Shown here: positions 54,415 to 63,317 of the stretch, piece after piece
How the letters are laid out: each line of letters opens with the position of its first letter
Position numbering within the stretch: the stretch's first letter is position 1
NCBI RefSeq assembly: GCF_022170825.1
Contig: NZ_CP081878.1
Span: forward strand, 2,506,001-2,570,000
Direction of reading: 5' to 3'
DNA: 64,000 nt
Source of the DNA: Exiguobacterium acetylicum
GTDB taxonomy: Bacteria > Bacillota > Bacilli > Exiguobacteriales > Exiguobacteriaceae
Position numbers and translations under genes: made by a program
Notes under the pieces: generated by a model
Database searches by the model: none
What the model was told of the DNA's origin: nothing
Seen by the model: only the letters and a program-made list of their open reading frames with translations

Positions 54415-54803
54415 CAGAACAAGAACTCTACGCGATGACCCCACAACAGCTGACGGAAGTGATGTTGACGGGACTCGTCCTTCAATACGACCAAGCCATT
54501 CTCGCACGTGACGCAAACCGCTTTGACGAGGTGAACGAACGCCTACAAAAAGCTTATCAGTTACTCGACAAATTGCAGGCAGGATTACACGACGACGGCG
54601 GCATCATCACGGCACAACTGGACGCGCTCTACCACTATCTTGCCGAGCAGACGTTACAGGTCTATAAGACACCGAGCGTCTTAGACGAACTACTTGAACT
54701 AGCAGAAGATTTACGCATCACTTGGCAAGCGGCTCAGACCGATGAACGACCACTTGCGCGCGCCGTACATCATCAACGATACGAAGGGATGGAATACGAA
54801 TGA
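54411..54803 (+). CDS. FliS-like flagellin chaperone, second copy
   Basis: A 130-residue helical protein of FliS pattern (MTPQQLTEVMLTGLVLQYDQAI, LLDKLQAGLHDDGG, LAEQTLQVYKTP, LAEDLRITWQAAQ). It overlaps the second flagellin gene by 4 nt (ATGA), so it is probably that flagellin's dedicated export chaperone. The canonical fliS is at 59262-59630 next to fliD. Confidence 0.8.
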   Translation: MTEQELYAMTPQQLTEVMLTGLVLQYDQAILARDANRFDEVNERLQKAYQLLDKLQAGLHDDGGIITAQLDALYHYLAEQTLQVYKTPSVLDELLELAEDLRITWQAAQTDERPLARAVHHQRYEGMEYE

Positions 54804-55690
54804 GAATCACGAATAACGTTCAAGCCTTGAAGGCTTATCGCAATCTCAGCATCAACCAGACGAATGTCAAGACGACAATGGATAAATTGTCGAGCGGTCA
54901 GAAGATCAACCGGGGAGCGGACGATGCAGCTGGTCTTGCAATCTCGGAGAAGATGCGCAATCGCTTGAAAGCACTCGATAAAGCCGAACAGAACGTTCTT
55001 GACGGTGTCTCGATGATTCAAACGGCTGAAGGTGGTTTGAGTGAGACACATAACCTGTTGCAACGAATGCGTGAACTGGCAGTTCAAGCTGGTAACGGTA
55101 CGCTCGCAACAGAAGACCGGACTGCAATCCAAGAAGAAATTAACCAGCTGACGAACGAGGTCTCACGGATTGCGAAGACGACACAGTTCAACGGCAAAGA
55201 ATTGTTGAGTGGTAAGTTCAACGATGCCGATAATGCCCTGTTCATCCAAACGAACGCAGGAGCAAACGAAGGGATCTCAATTACGATTAACGACATGCAA
55301 GCCCTTGCGCTTGATATCAGTTCAACGACACAAGCTGATCCTTCAATTCGCCCGCTTGATTTCCCGAGCGGTGACGCACCGGAGTACGCCCTTAGCGTCA
55401 TGACGGCAGCGGATGCAAACGACACAATCAGCCATTATACGAAAGCGATCGATACGGTCTCCCAGCAACGGGCACAACTCGGGGCAATCCAGAACCGCTT
55501 TGAAGCGACGTCATCCGTCCTCAGTGTCAGCGCCGAGAACTTGACGGCTTCAGAATCACGGATTCGCGATACCGATATGGCACGGGAGATGATGGAATAC
55601 GCGAAGTTCAACATCCTCAACCAATCGGGTATGGCCATGATTGCTCAAGCAAACGCCCTGCCGCAAGGCGTCTTACAACTACTCAACTAA
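54800..55690 (+). CDS. Flagellin, second (minor) copy
   Basis: A 296-residue flagellin with conserved D0/D1 ends (MRITNNVQALKAYRNLSINQ, RGADDAAGLAISEKMR, and a C-terminus ending ALPQGVLQLLN) and a short central region. It is about 100 residues shorter than the main flagellin at 62118-63317 and its last residue is Asn instead of Arg. Base composition matches the surrounding genes. Co-transcribed with its own FliS-like chaperone. Confidence 0.95.
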   Translation: MRITNNVQALKAYRNLSINQTNVKTTMDKLSSGQKINRGADDAAGLAISEKMRNRLKALDKAEQNVLDGVSMIQTAEGGLSETHNLLQRMRELAVQAGNGTLATEDRTAIQEEINQLTNEVSRIAKTTQFNGKELLSGKFNDADNALFIQTNAGANEGISITINDMQALALDISSTTQADPSIRPLDFPSGDAPEYALSVMTAADANDTISHYTKAIDTVSQQRAQLGAIQNRFEATSSVLSVSAENLTASESRIRDTDMAREMMEYAKFNILNQSGMAMIAQANALPQGVLQLLN

Positions 55691-61692: not shown

Positions 61693-61722
61693 AAAAAAGG
61701 TCACGGAACGCGTCCGTGACCT
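61693..61722 (-). terminator. Terminator of the main flagellin transcript
   Basis: AGGTCACGGA pairs with TCCGTGACCT around CGCGT and is followed by TTTTTTG on the minus strand. It lies after exon 2, so the intron and exon 2 are inside the flagellin transcript. Confidence 0.9.
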
Positions 61723-61748
61723 GAACAATCAATATGTGCCAATTACGA

Positions 61749-61793
61749 TTAACGGAGTAATTGGAGAACGCCTTGCGGCTGTTGGTTCGCTTG
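61749..61793 (-). CDS. hag: Flagellin exon 2 (second C-terminal tail)
   Basis: Fifteen codons reading QANQQPQGVLQLLR and TAA. Joined after Ala385 of exon 1 they restore the canonical AMLAQANQQPQ...QLLR flagellin end seen in B. subtilis Hag. Compared with the tail encoded just before 62118, 12 of 45 bases differ but only two residues change. There is no ribosome site or start, so it can only be expressed by splicing. Confidence 0.75.
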   Translation of the reverse strand, partial: QANQQPQGVLQLLR

Positions 61794-62162
61794 CTACGCG
61801 CATTAGCTTTCGCTAATGATAAGACTATATCTTCATCCTAGATATCCTAGGAGCTGGGCACTTCCCCCGCCGTTTACGGAGTACGGATTTCATAACCATC
61901 GGACAAGTCCATTAGGTCGTCTATCCTAGTCGTTGAACCTTCACCAAGGTTTCCCTACAGGTGCTTGGCTGCTGATTGTCCAATCCTTGATGTTTTTCAA
62001 AACGGTCACGCTCGCCGTTTCCAGCCACGTTGTCGTACACCAAGGCTCTCAGGAGTTCCAGCAATTCACCCAGTCATGTTCTAATCCGTTACCAGATTAG
62101 ACGCCCGGTAGAATCAATTATCGAAGGAGTTGAAGAACGCCCTGCGGTGTCTGATTCGATTG
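61794..62162 (-). ncRNA. Group I self-splicing intron in the flagellin gene
   Basis: On the minus strand all four conserved group I elements occur in order: P (AATTGCTGGAA, 62056-62066), Q (AATCAGCAGCC, 61967-61977), R (GTTCAACGACTA, 61927-61938) and S (AAGATATAGTC, 61823-61833). P pairs with Q (P4, TTGCTG/CAGCAG) and R with S (P7, GACTA/TAGTC). A P2 hairpin TCTAATC/GATTAGA and a GAAA-capped P9 hairpin (61801-61818) complete the core. No endonuclease frame is present. The boundaries are my inference: the upstream exon ends in U (62163) and the intron ends in G (61794), as the class requires. The 5' boundary is less certain, because an alternative 7-bp P1 would place it after 62136. Confidence 0.85.
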
Positions 62163-63317
62163 AGCCAACATTGCTTGTGCAGCTTGTGCAAGAATCGAGT
62201 TCTTTGTTTGGTTCATCATTTCTTTCGCCATATCAACGTCACGAACGCGTGATTCAGCCGCTGTGATATTTTCAGACGATGTTTTTAAGTTGTTGATTGT
62301 ATGTTCTAGACGGTTTTGATTAGCACCTAAAGAAGAACGTTGTGTTGAAATATCTTTAATTGAACGATCCATTGTAGAAATTAAGTTTTCAAAATTAGAT
62401 TTACTTAATCCATTAGCAGCTTGTAATTTATTTAAAGCTAGTTCGATGGTATCTGAACCATTCGCAGATTCAATGTTACCAATTGTCGATGCGTCGTATT
62501 TTCCGAAAGATACAGATAGAGTTTCATCTGATCCTCCTTTTGTACCAATTAAAAATTCTGCCGCTCCACTTCCTGCTGCAGTTTTAATCGTATCAGTAGC
62601 TGTTGTTTCTAATGCTGCACCAATAAGGTCTGCTGTAGTTGTACCACTAACTGTTAAACTAATTCCCAATTCATTAAACGATAGGGTTTTAGAGTCGCCA
62701 GCAGTAGCAGGTAACGTAATAGTTTGAGCAACGTTATCTCCACTTCTTGTTAACGTTAACTTATCAGTTGTATCATCGTATGAAAACTGATAGTCACGAT
62801 TAGCTAAAGCTCCAGATACATCAATTGCAGAAATTACAGAACCTACACCTGCTGCAGTACCTACTTTTAATTCAGAAGTTGAATCTAGCTTAGCAGATAG
62901 ATCACCATTCAATAATTTTTTATCGTTGAATGCTGTAGTTTTAGAAACACGATTGATTTCAGTTTCTAACTGCTCTAATTCATCTAGAATCGCGCCTTTA
63001 TCATCGCTATTATTTGTTTCGTTAGCACCTTGAACCGCTAACTCACGCATACGTTGAGAAATTGCGTGTACTTCATTTAAAGCTCCTTCAGCTGTTTGAA
63101 TCATTGAAATACCATCTTGTGCATTTCGTGAAGCTTGATCAAGTCCACGAACTTGAGCACGCATTTTTTCAGAAATTGAAAGACCTGCTGCATCGTCTCC
63201 AGCTTTGTTGATGCGAAGACCTGAAGCAAGTTTCTCCATTGATTTGCTTTGCGCTGCAGAAGCCGCAGACAATTTGTTGTGCGTGTTAAGCGCTGTAATG
63301 TTGTGATTGATAATCAT
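62118..63317 (-). CDS. hag: Main flagellin (unspliced reading; exon 1 is 62163-63317)
   Basis: Filament subunit. The frame shown is 399 residues with conserved D0/D1 ends (MIINHNITALNTHNKLSAAS; RVRDVDMAKEMMNQTKNSIL) and a variable centre (about 130-310). I start at the ATG at 63317 after GGAGGGA. Without splicing it ends QSNQTPQGVLQLLR and TAA at 62118-62120. If the group I intron is removed, the last 14 codons come from 61749-61793 and the product is also 399 residues, changed only at 387 (Ser to Ala) and 390 (Thr to Gln). The central third looks AT-richer than both ends and than neighbouring genes. Confidence 0.95.
   Translation of the reverse strand: MIINHNITALNTHNKLSAASAAQSKSMEKLASGLRINKAGDDAAGLSISEKMRAQVRGLDQASRNAQDGISMIQTAEGALNEVHAISQRMRELAVQGANETNNSDDKGAILDELEQLETEINRVSKTTAFNDKKLLNGDLSAKLDSTSELKVGTAAGVGSVISAIDVSGALANRDYQFSYDDTTDKLTLTRSGDNVAQTITLPATAGDSKTLSFNELGISLTVSGTTTADLIGAALETTATDTIKTAAGSGAAEFLIGTKGGSDETLSVSFGKYDASTIGNIESANGSDTIELALNKLQAANGLSKSNFENLISTMDRSIKDISTQRSSLGANQNRLEHTINNLKTSSENITAAESRVRDVDMAKEMMNQTKNSILAQAAQAMLAQSNQTPQGVLQLLR

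Follow-up and report, generated by a model that had tools for sequence, protein, structure and literature searches.

A flagellin gene of Exiguobacterium acetylicum, located in the 64,000-nt stretch of DNA analysed here (the window), is interrupted 14 codons from its end by a group I intron whose first 45 nt form, in frame with exon 1, a second version of the flagellin C-terminus and its stop codon. The most probable explanation, to which we give a probability of about 0.77, is that this is an exon-mimicking intron, in which early ribosomes would already yield full-length flagellin by reading the copy inside the intron, while the transcript would later be spliced onto the C-terminal tail encoded by exon 2. 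The features of the locus are the following.

62163..63317, minus strand: flagellin exon 1, 385 codons, with Pfam Flagellin_N and Flagellin_C found on the read-through product
61794..62162, minus strand: group I intron, 369 nt, last base G at 61794, based on RF00028, the class set of introns and L019, an intron-less flagellin gene of a congener
62118..62162, minus strand: tail 1, the exon mimic, 14 codons and a stop within the intron (QSNQTPQGVLQLLR and stop), kept in 143 of 146 distinct introns
61749..61793, minus strand: exon 2, which is tail 2 (QANQQPQGVLQLLR and stop), in agreement with the tails of intron-less relatives
62103..62106, minus strand: guide GGGC, the 3' strand of P1, which pairs with the exon GCU and the first intron base C (minimum-energy fold, comparison of 109 loci)
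62111..62117, minus strand: 3' strand of the P1 extension, UUGAUUC, immediately past the tail-1 stop (minimum-energy fold, swap test)
62151..62157, minus strand: 5' strand of the P1 extension, GAAUCAG, within tail-1 codons 2-4 (minimum-energy fold, swap test)
61693..61722, minus strand: probable intrinsic terminator past exon 2, a hairpin and U run read by eye

Including its intron, the gene spans 63317-61749 on the minus strand and is followed on that strand by flaG, fliD and fliS (Pfam matches). Exon 1 ends with ATG TTG GCT, its last base being 62163, and exon 2 begins with the codon CAA at 61793, which places the insertion point between Ala (GCT) and Gln (CAA). Reading from exon 1 into the intron gives the 14 in-frame codons of tail 1 and a stop ending at 62118, and the 3' end of the intron reads ...GCGCGTAG, directly followed by tail 2 and its stop (61793-61749). 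The original prediction located an intron with its own copy of the flagellin C-terminus at 61749-62163, and these coordinates are confirmed to the base. Its figures were also right on recheck: both predicted products have 385 + 14 = 399 residues and differ at two of them (S/A and T/Q), and the two tails differ at 12 of 45 bases. The predicted last tryptic peptide is NSILAQAAQAMLAQSNQTPQGVLQLLR for the unspliced and NSILAQAAQAMLAQANQQPQGVLQLLR for the spliced message, 11.016 Da apart in a hand calculation from residue masses. A second flagellin-like gene, which is intron-free and has the tail QANALPQGVLQLLN, lies on the plus strand at window positions 54803-55684.

The assignment to group I relies on a covariance match of the core to RF00028 at 61801-62121 on the minus strand, which covers the full model (1-253) and scores 80.8 bits, the gathering threshold being 50. 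A P1 with a U.G pair at the 5' splice site and exon-guide pairing is also present, as a short stem of four pairs plus the extension. All 40 class-set introns end in G, preceded by seven different combinations of two bases; two further locus sets, in which the pattern demanded a terminal G, are not counted as support. Likewise, all 40 class-set introns follow an exon that ends in T (38 GCT and 2 TCT), a base left free by the class-set 5' pattern, which fixed CA after the splice site. No minus-strand ORF of at least 60 aa, and hence no candidate homing endonuclease, was found inside the 369-nt intron. Splice sites at both ends are fixed by the empty site in L019, and the intron is presumably self-splicing.

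Tail 1 is not only a coding segment but also part of the ribozyme. In the unconstrained minimum-energy fold of the window RNA, it makes up the P1 loop; the stem of this helix connects the exon with the guide, and its extension pairs tail-1 codons with bases directly past the tail-1 stop. Exon and guide read GCT/GGGC in 107 of 109 loci and TCT/GGGA in the other 2, bearing in mind that the guide motif itself was used to find most of the 109. The TCT/GGGA combination looks like a compensatory change, possibly a single event, both TCT loci being in one genus (g73). Across loci, tail-1 codons 2-4 mostly pair with the 7-12 bases following the stop; the mean P1 pairing score in 102 non-redundant loci is 13.84, compared with 11.50 (sd 0.21) after the segments past the stop have been exchanged between loci and 9.11 after they have been shuffled, and 0 of 300 swaps reach the observed score (largest 12.20). 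The distance from the tail-1 stop to the guide is 5-12 nt in 142 of 143 mimic introns, and one of the 143 (L253) has no match to the guide pattern and reads GGGT at this place. A ribosome terminating on tail 1 should therefore cover P1, not the ribozyme core. As for P10, only a single pair can be drawn by eye, which counts against the exon-mimic reading. Other placements were considered and rejected. Alternative splice sites within tail 1, for example between GGCGU and U near the guide or beside the stop, do not restore the flagellin frame (by eye); the GGCGU site would require an intron ending in U, and the change to exon TCT and guide GGGA suits the site before CAA instead. The P1 placement by Rfam (start 62121) includes several non-standard pairs, and a P1 with tail 1 in its loop, also the minimum-energy fold, is preferred.

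The intron site described here (site B) is widespread among relatives. In the genus, 14 of 19 genomes contain the intron and 14 of these 14 carry the double tail; RF00028-positive genomes number 94 of 398 in Bacilli and 36 of 398 from the phylum, 4 of these 36 being also in the Bacilli set. Pooled sources provide 159 loci, which collapse to 146 distinct introns; 143 of them hold the 14-codon copy and its stop, in 49 tail-1 peptide versions, with VLQLL in 143 of 143. The internal tail proposed in the original prediction is thus intact in nearly all related loci compared. A DNA pattern for the intron that is blind to the tail, with 1 match in the window versus 0 in 100 shuffles, found at least 117 stretches in named genomes, including Bacillus, Oceanobacillus, Sporosarcina, Planococcus, Anoxybacillus, Parageobacillus, Brevibacillus, Paenibacillus and Caloranaerobacter, and 116 of the 117 stretches listed have the 14-codon tail (79 of 80, 36 of 37, plus L225). 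This pattern demands CTCA, GGGCGTC and a gap of 26-56 nt, being blind to other guides and to the shortest P1 loops, and it gave no match in the viral contigs scanned. One locus of this type, L197 (JAGGRA010000050.1), is titled Pseudomonas sp. ISL-84 and holds a Bacillus-type flagellin with a site-B intron, so the assembly is probably misnamed.

Three site-B introns have no mimic, namely L077 (QFEQVA and stop), L151 (QFEQIAA and stop) and L087 (QLLVA and stop), the last of which has a gap of 23, was missed by both the DNA pattern and the first tail-2 pattern, and was added later. In a tree of 136 intron cores, 108 site-B introns form one group with support 0.96, and the mimic-less introns are nested within the tailed group: L077 and L151 join with 0.996 and stand beside L067 with 0.94, while L087 is poorly placed (0.30). 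This tree took 108 of 113 site-B introns tried, 23 site-A introns (described below) and 5 of 9 introns of the AML site, the filter being the extraction pattern, and site A is not monophyletic in it. The mimic looks old and, given this nesting, looks to have been lost within site B. Introns without an internal tail, which would speak against the original prediction, do occur (3 of 146), but inside the tailed group and in a loss-like position.

The copy of the 3' exon appears to be specific to site B among the introns examined. In a control covering 118 of 141 Bacilli RF00028 matches (22 below 47 bits and the second G390 contig were omitted), 77 non-site-B introns showed no copy of their own 3' exon; among the 14 best matches of these controls, 9 fall between the cores of two neighbouring introns, and L087 was counted with the 77 before it was recognised as a site-B intron without mimic. 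The self-copy score of the 41 site-B introns has a median of 61, the lowest values being 20 and 22 (presumably L077 and L134) and the next 47. L134 (G261:C61:29717-30792), which was removed before counting introns and tails, is an orphan piece of site-B intron followed by a tail-2 fragment without a stop; no exon 1 was found upstream of it, and the string GGGTACCTG is present on both of its flanks.

Both tails bear the marks of protein-coding sequence. All 104 distinct two-tail loci have a stop at codon 15 in each tail, and parsimony on a tree built from the intron core, with the tails left out, gives 101, 36 and 302 changes at codon positions 1, 2 and 3 of tail 1 and 55, 12 and 217 at those of tail 2. 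Codons 9-13 alone underwent 146 base changes in tail 1 and 143 in tail 2 with zero residue changes in either. The last residue is equal between the tails in 102 of 104 genes (90 R/R, 7 Q/Q and 5 G/G), its codon being identical in only 8 of 104. These patterns strongly support evolution of both tails under protein-level constraint, in line with the original prediction that the protein end is conserved in both copies, as do the 143 of 146 intact copies. In the named set, tail 2 was found in 75 of 80 loci, the remaining 5 having fewer than 412 bases past the splice site. Within a gene the tails differ at 8-19 of 42 bases, 13.1 on average compared with 13.9 between genes; this excess of same-gene similarity is small, although none of 2000 shuffles reaches it for bases or residues, and 21 do when codons 9-13 are taken alone, and it may reflect weak gene conversion between the tails or shared codon bias.

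The constraint is not equal on both sides. Tail 1 underwent 86 residue changes versus 16 in tail 2 on the same tree, a comparison in which the tail-2 search pattern preset part of the conservation by demanding a Q..P..V-L-type tail and the tail-1 pattern did not. This looser tail 1 weighs against the exon-mimic reading, and it may mean that tail 1 is less used or that it is pulled by RNA pairing. The differences could also signify two isoforms with distinct roles, tail 1 (usually QSNQM) and tail 2 (QANQQ), in a ratio set by splicing, since tail 1 has S at residue 2 in 85 of 104 loci and M at residue 5 in 46, while tail 2 has A in 103 and Q in 96 of the 104 at these positions. However, the deviating codons 2-5 lie within or beside the P1 extension, so that RNA pairing can explain them, and the variability of tail 1 at residue 5 (31 changes) gives little hint of a tuned isoform. 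Distinct roles are thus unlikely.

A reading that we find quite improbable holds that tail 1 is the real C-terminus, that splicing is rare or dead, and that tail 2 persists as a relic because of RNA structure or recency. The ORF listing does terminate at tail 1, and the DNA of tail 2 hardly varies within Exiguobacterium, where it overlaps with an inverted repeat, CCAATTAC...GTAATTGG, which flanks the exon-2 stop at window positions 61739-61764 on the minus strand. This repeat is not a feature of the intron, because it is also present in the intron-less L019; in L013 (one species) it carries compensatory-looking changes. RNA structure as the only reason for the invariance of tail 2 was discarded, given the repeat in L019 and the synonymous variation of tail 2 across genera. 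Against a relic, 217 of the 284 tail-2 changes in the 104 loci fall at third positions, with 16 residue changes, some residues having been preset by the pattern. Against dead splicing, there is conservation of the P1 pairing, of the terminal G and of the ribozyme core, and self-splicing of flagellin introns in thermophilic Bacillus is cited in PMC3984707 and PMC4853749.

The origin of the double tail can be read from relatives that lack the intron. RF00028 finds no match in the congener genome G008, whose flagellin L019 reads ...ATGCTTGCA directly followed by CAAGCAAACCAACAGCCGCAAGGCGTTCTCCAATTACTCCGTTAATCGTAATTGG, that is, exon 1 is joined to the exon-2 tail, with the same downstream sequence as in intron-bearing species. 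In the 5 of 19 Exiguobacterium genomes without an RF00028 match, the hag-like tails all read QANQQPQ(G/A)VLQLLR and are tail-2-like, and two solved flagellins have similar ends (5wjt, QANQQPQNVLQLLR; 8jmv, QANQQPQQVLQLLK). On this comparison, tail 2 is thus the old exon and tail 1 a copy belonging to the intron, which came with it, as L019 has the exon-2 tail only. The alternative offered in the original prediction, recombination between tandem flagellin genes that trapped the intron in the 3' region, is highly improbable: two intron-bearing flagellin genes on one contig do occur (L151 and L186), but L019 has the arrangement just described, and the layout is uniform in 143 of 146 loci, including the narrow stop-to-guide spacing.

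The exon-mimicking intron would work as follows. Leading ribosomes would arrive at the intron before its 3' half is transcribed, opening P1, and would complete full-length flagellin on tail 1 rather than release a product short of 14 residues. The C-terminal helix of flagellin is required for filament assembly, and a flagellin without its last 14 residues would be harmful or useless. The ribosome would halt at the tail-1 stop, 5-12 nt before the guide and short of the ribozyme core; P1 would refold later, the intron would splice, and later ribosomes would end on tail 2. The unspliced transcript would thus be a working message that is able to splice afterwards, translated often enough to select tail 1, with the spliced message being translated too. 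Each round of translation should give usable flagellin and, thus, splicing could be slow, partial or temperature-dependent at little cost. It is reasonable to infer from the sequences that intron retention is harmless and that two flagellin isoforms exist.

The need for a mimic is called into question by the three site-B introns that have none and by a second flagellin intron, site A, which is inserted upstream in many of these same genes between RIRDVD and MAKEMM, has no mimic and accounts for 19 matches in the control set. Examples, outside the window, are L049, L052, L055, L057, L059 and others. A flagellin gene can evidently tolerate an intron, such as that at site A, whose retention truncates the product. 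The read-through product of site A is RDVDYALAA and stop or close kin: among 71 distinct read-throughs, drawn from both samples with a pattern that demands a stop at most 14 codons past RDVD-type residues, 69 end in -AA, 2 in -VA and 41 in YALAA, with 11 codon combinations for the last two residues and exon-2-like sequence downstream in 69 of 71. These ends resemble ssrA (tmRNA) tags. ARAGORN found tmRNA in 10 of 12 genomes tried, and 10 of 10 tags end in -AA, three of them in YALAA. The sequence YALAA sufficed for degradation of GFP by E. coli ClpXP (PMC7652416), whereas for ALAA alone without a linker the KM could not be determined (PMC8512704), so a short degron tail is not always enough.

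The degron idea arose post hoc on Bacilli and was then written down as a test and read on a second sample outside Bacilli, in which RF00028 gave 46 matches in 398 phylum genomes and 27 new loci were read, the flagellin loci being the only informative ones. In this sample, site-A introns end in -AEAA in 4 of 4, with exon 2 reading MAKEMM. A further flagellin site outside Bacilli, which follows AML, has read-throughs ending in -AA in 9 of 9 loci (L257, L258, L260, L261, L262, L263, L267, L268 and L269, three of the nine introns being from one genus), with differing preceding residues (EMAA, VRWAA, EIAA, GIAA twice, GLAA, RMAA, VLAA and APAA) and exon 2 reading AQAN...VLQLL(R/G) in 9 of 9. The same sample added one mimic intron, L253. 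The mimic-less site-B read-throughs, in turn, end in -VA (L077), -IAA (L151) and -LVA (L087). At site A, inspection by eye places the Ala codons in a small hairpin whose loop contains or lies close to the stop, and RNA pairing may lie behind these codons as well as a degron; at the AML site, the hairpin looks different by eye and the -AA end is retained.

Taken together, flagellin introns may encode the fate of the unspliced product, their first codons being selected either to complete the protein (site B) or to add an ssrA-like ClpXP degron ending in -AA or -VA (site A, the AML site and the three mimic-less site-B introns), a proposal that we hold to be somewhat better than an even bet. Selection on these codons would arise because ribosomes enter the intron before it folds. 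The contrast with site A, where read-throughs of introns lacking a mimic end in -AA or -VA in 71 of 71 cases, favours the exon-mimic reading of site B. Unlike the ssrA tag, the putative flagellin tag would be templated in cis by the intron and not by tmRNA. For non-flagellin introns, Ala-ending read-through is a lead only. In the Bacilli set, 9 of 38 readable rows, which represent about 20 sites by our own grouping, end in Ala, compared with 4 of 59 stops in other frames of these stretches, and Ala-Ala does not occur among the latter; of the approximately 20 sites, about 9 end in Ala when L085 (-KVA, below the length rule) is counted, and 4 in -AA. The Ala-ending loci are L074, L096, L101, L131, L119, L124, L085, L109, L120 and L123, and the ends found are LAA, YAA, QAA, VAA, LVA, NVA, KVA, ICA, VNA and KLA. 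The large group of nrdE introns is mostly not Ala-ending, although its member L123 is.

Group I introns in flagellin genes of Bacillales are known, and temperature-dependent splicing has been reported for them (PMC3984707, PMC4853749), promoting motility at higher temperature (PMC4853749); the latter report would fit a mimic-less intron better than an exon-mimic intron. These are the introns of Hayakawa and Ishizuka, and the passages on them in PMC3984707 and PMC4853749 mention no C-terminal copy. Anoxybacillus and Parageobacillus both contain site-B introns. An in-frame stop shortly past the 5' splice site is also described for group I introns (PMC3984707), the difference in flagellin being that translation up to this stop completes the host protein.

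A close parallel is found in the mobile-ORF duplications of fungal mitochondria (Glomus atp6, atp9, cox2 and nad3; Allomyces atp6), where a mobile element inserted near the 3' end of a gene brings its own copy of the C-terminus, with diverged DNA and conserved protein as in tail 1 (PMC3630166). However, the inserted fungal copy replaces the native end and is accompanied by an endonuclease ORF, which the flagellin intron does not have, and no native end was detected in the mRNA of atp6 or cox2 (PMC3630166). In the flagellin intron, by contrast, the copy lies within the ribozyme P1 and both ends are under constraint; instead of being free to decay, tail 2 is the more constrained one (16 versus 86 residue changes). 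Among the titles and abstract beginnings listed by searches of the open literature, none describes a double tail or a degron-like intron peptide; an earlier description may exist in the flagellin-intron papers. Flagellin introns and mobile C-terminal copies being already known, what appears to be new is an intron in whose P1 a copy of the 3' exon is maintained by selection, such that both messages would encode the protein.

Coupled transcription and translation is considered a reason for possible selection against introns in bacterial protein genes (PMC3984707). The exon mimic would be an evolutionary answer to this coupling, in which the end of the host protein is written into P1 and the early ribosome becomes harmless. 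As the unspliced ORF looks complete, gene finders likely end such genes at tail 1 and overlook the intron. Moreover, the mimic and the -AA read-through peptides found elsewhere suggest that the unspliced protein product is itself under selection and, if this is true, the same fate-encoding logic may extend to the introns of other bacterial genes.
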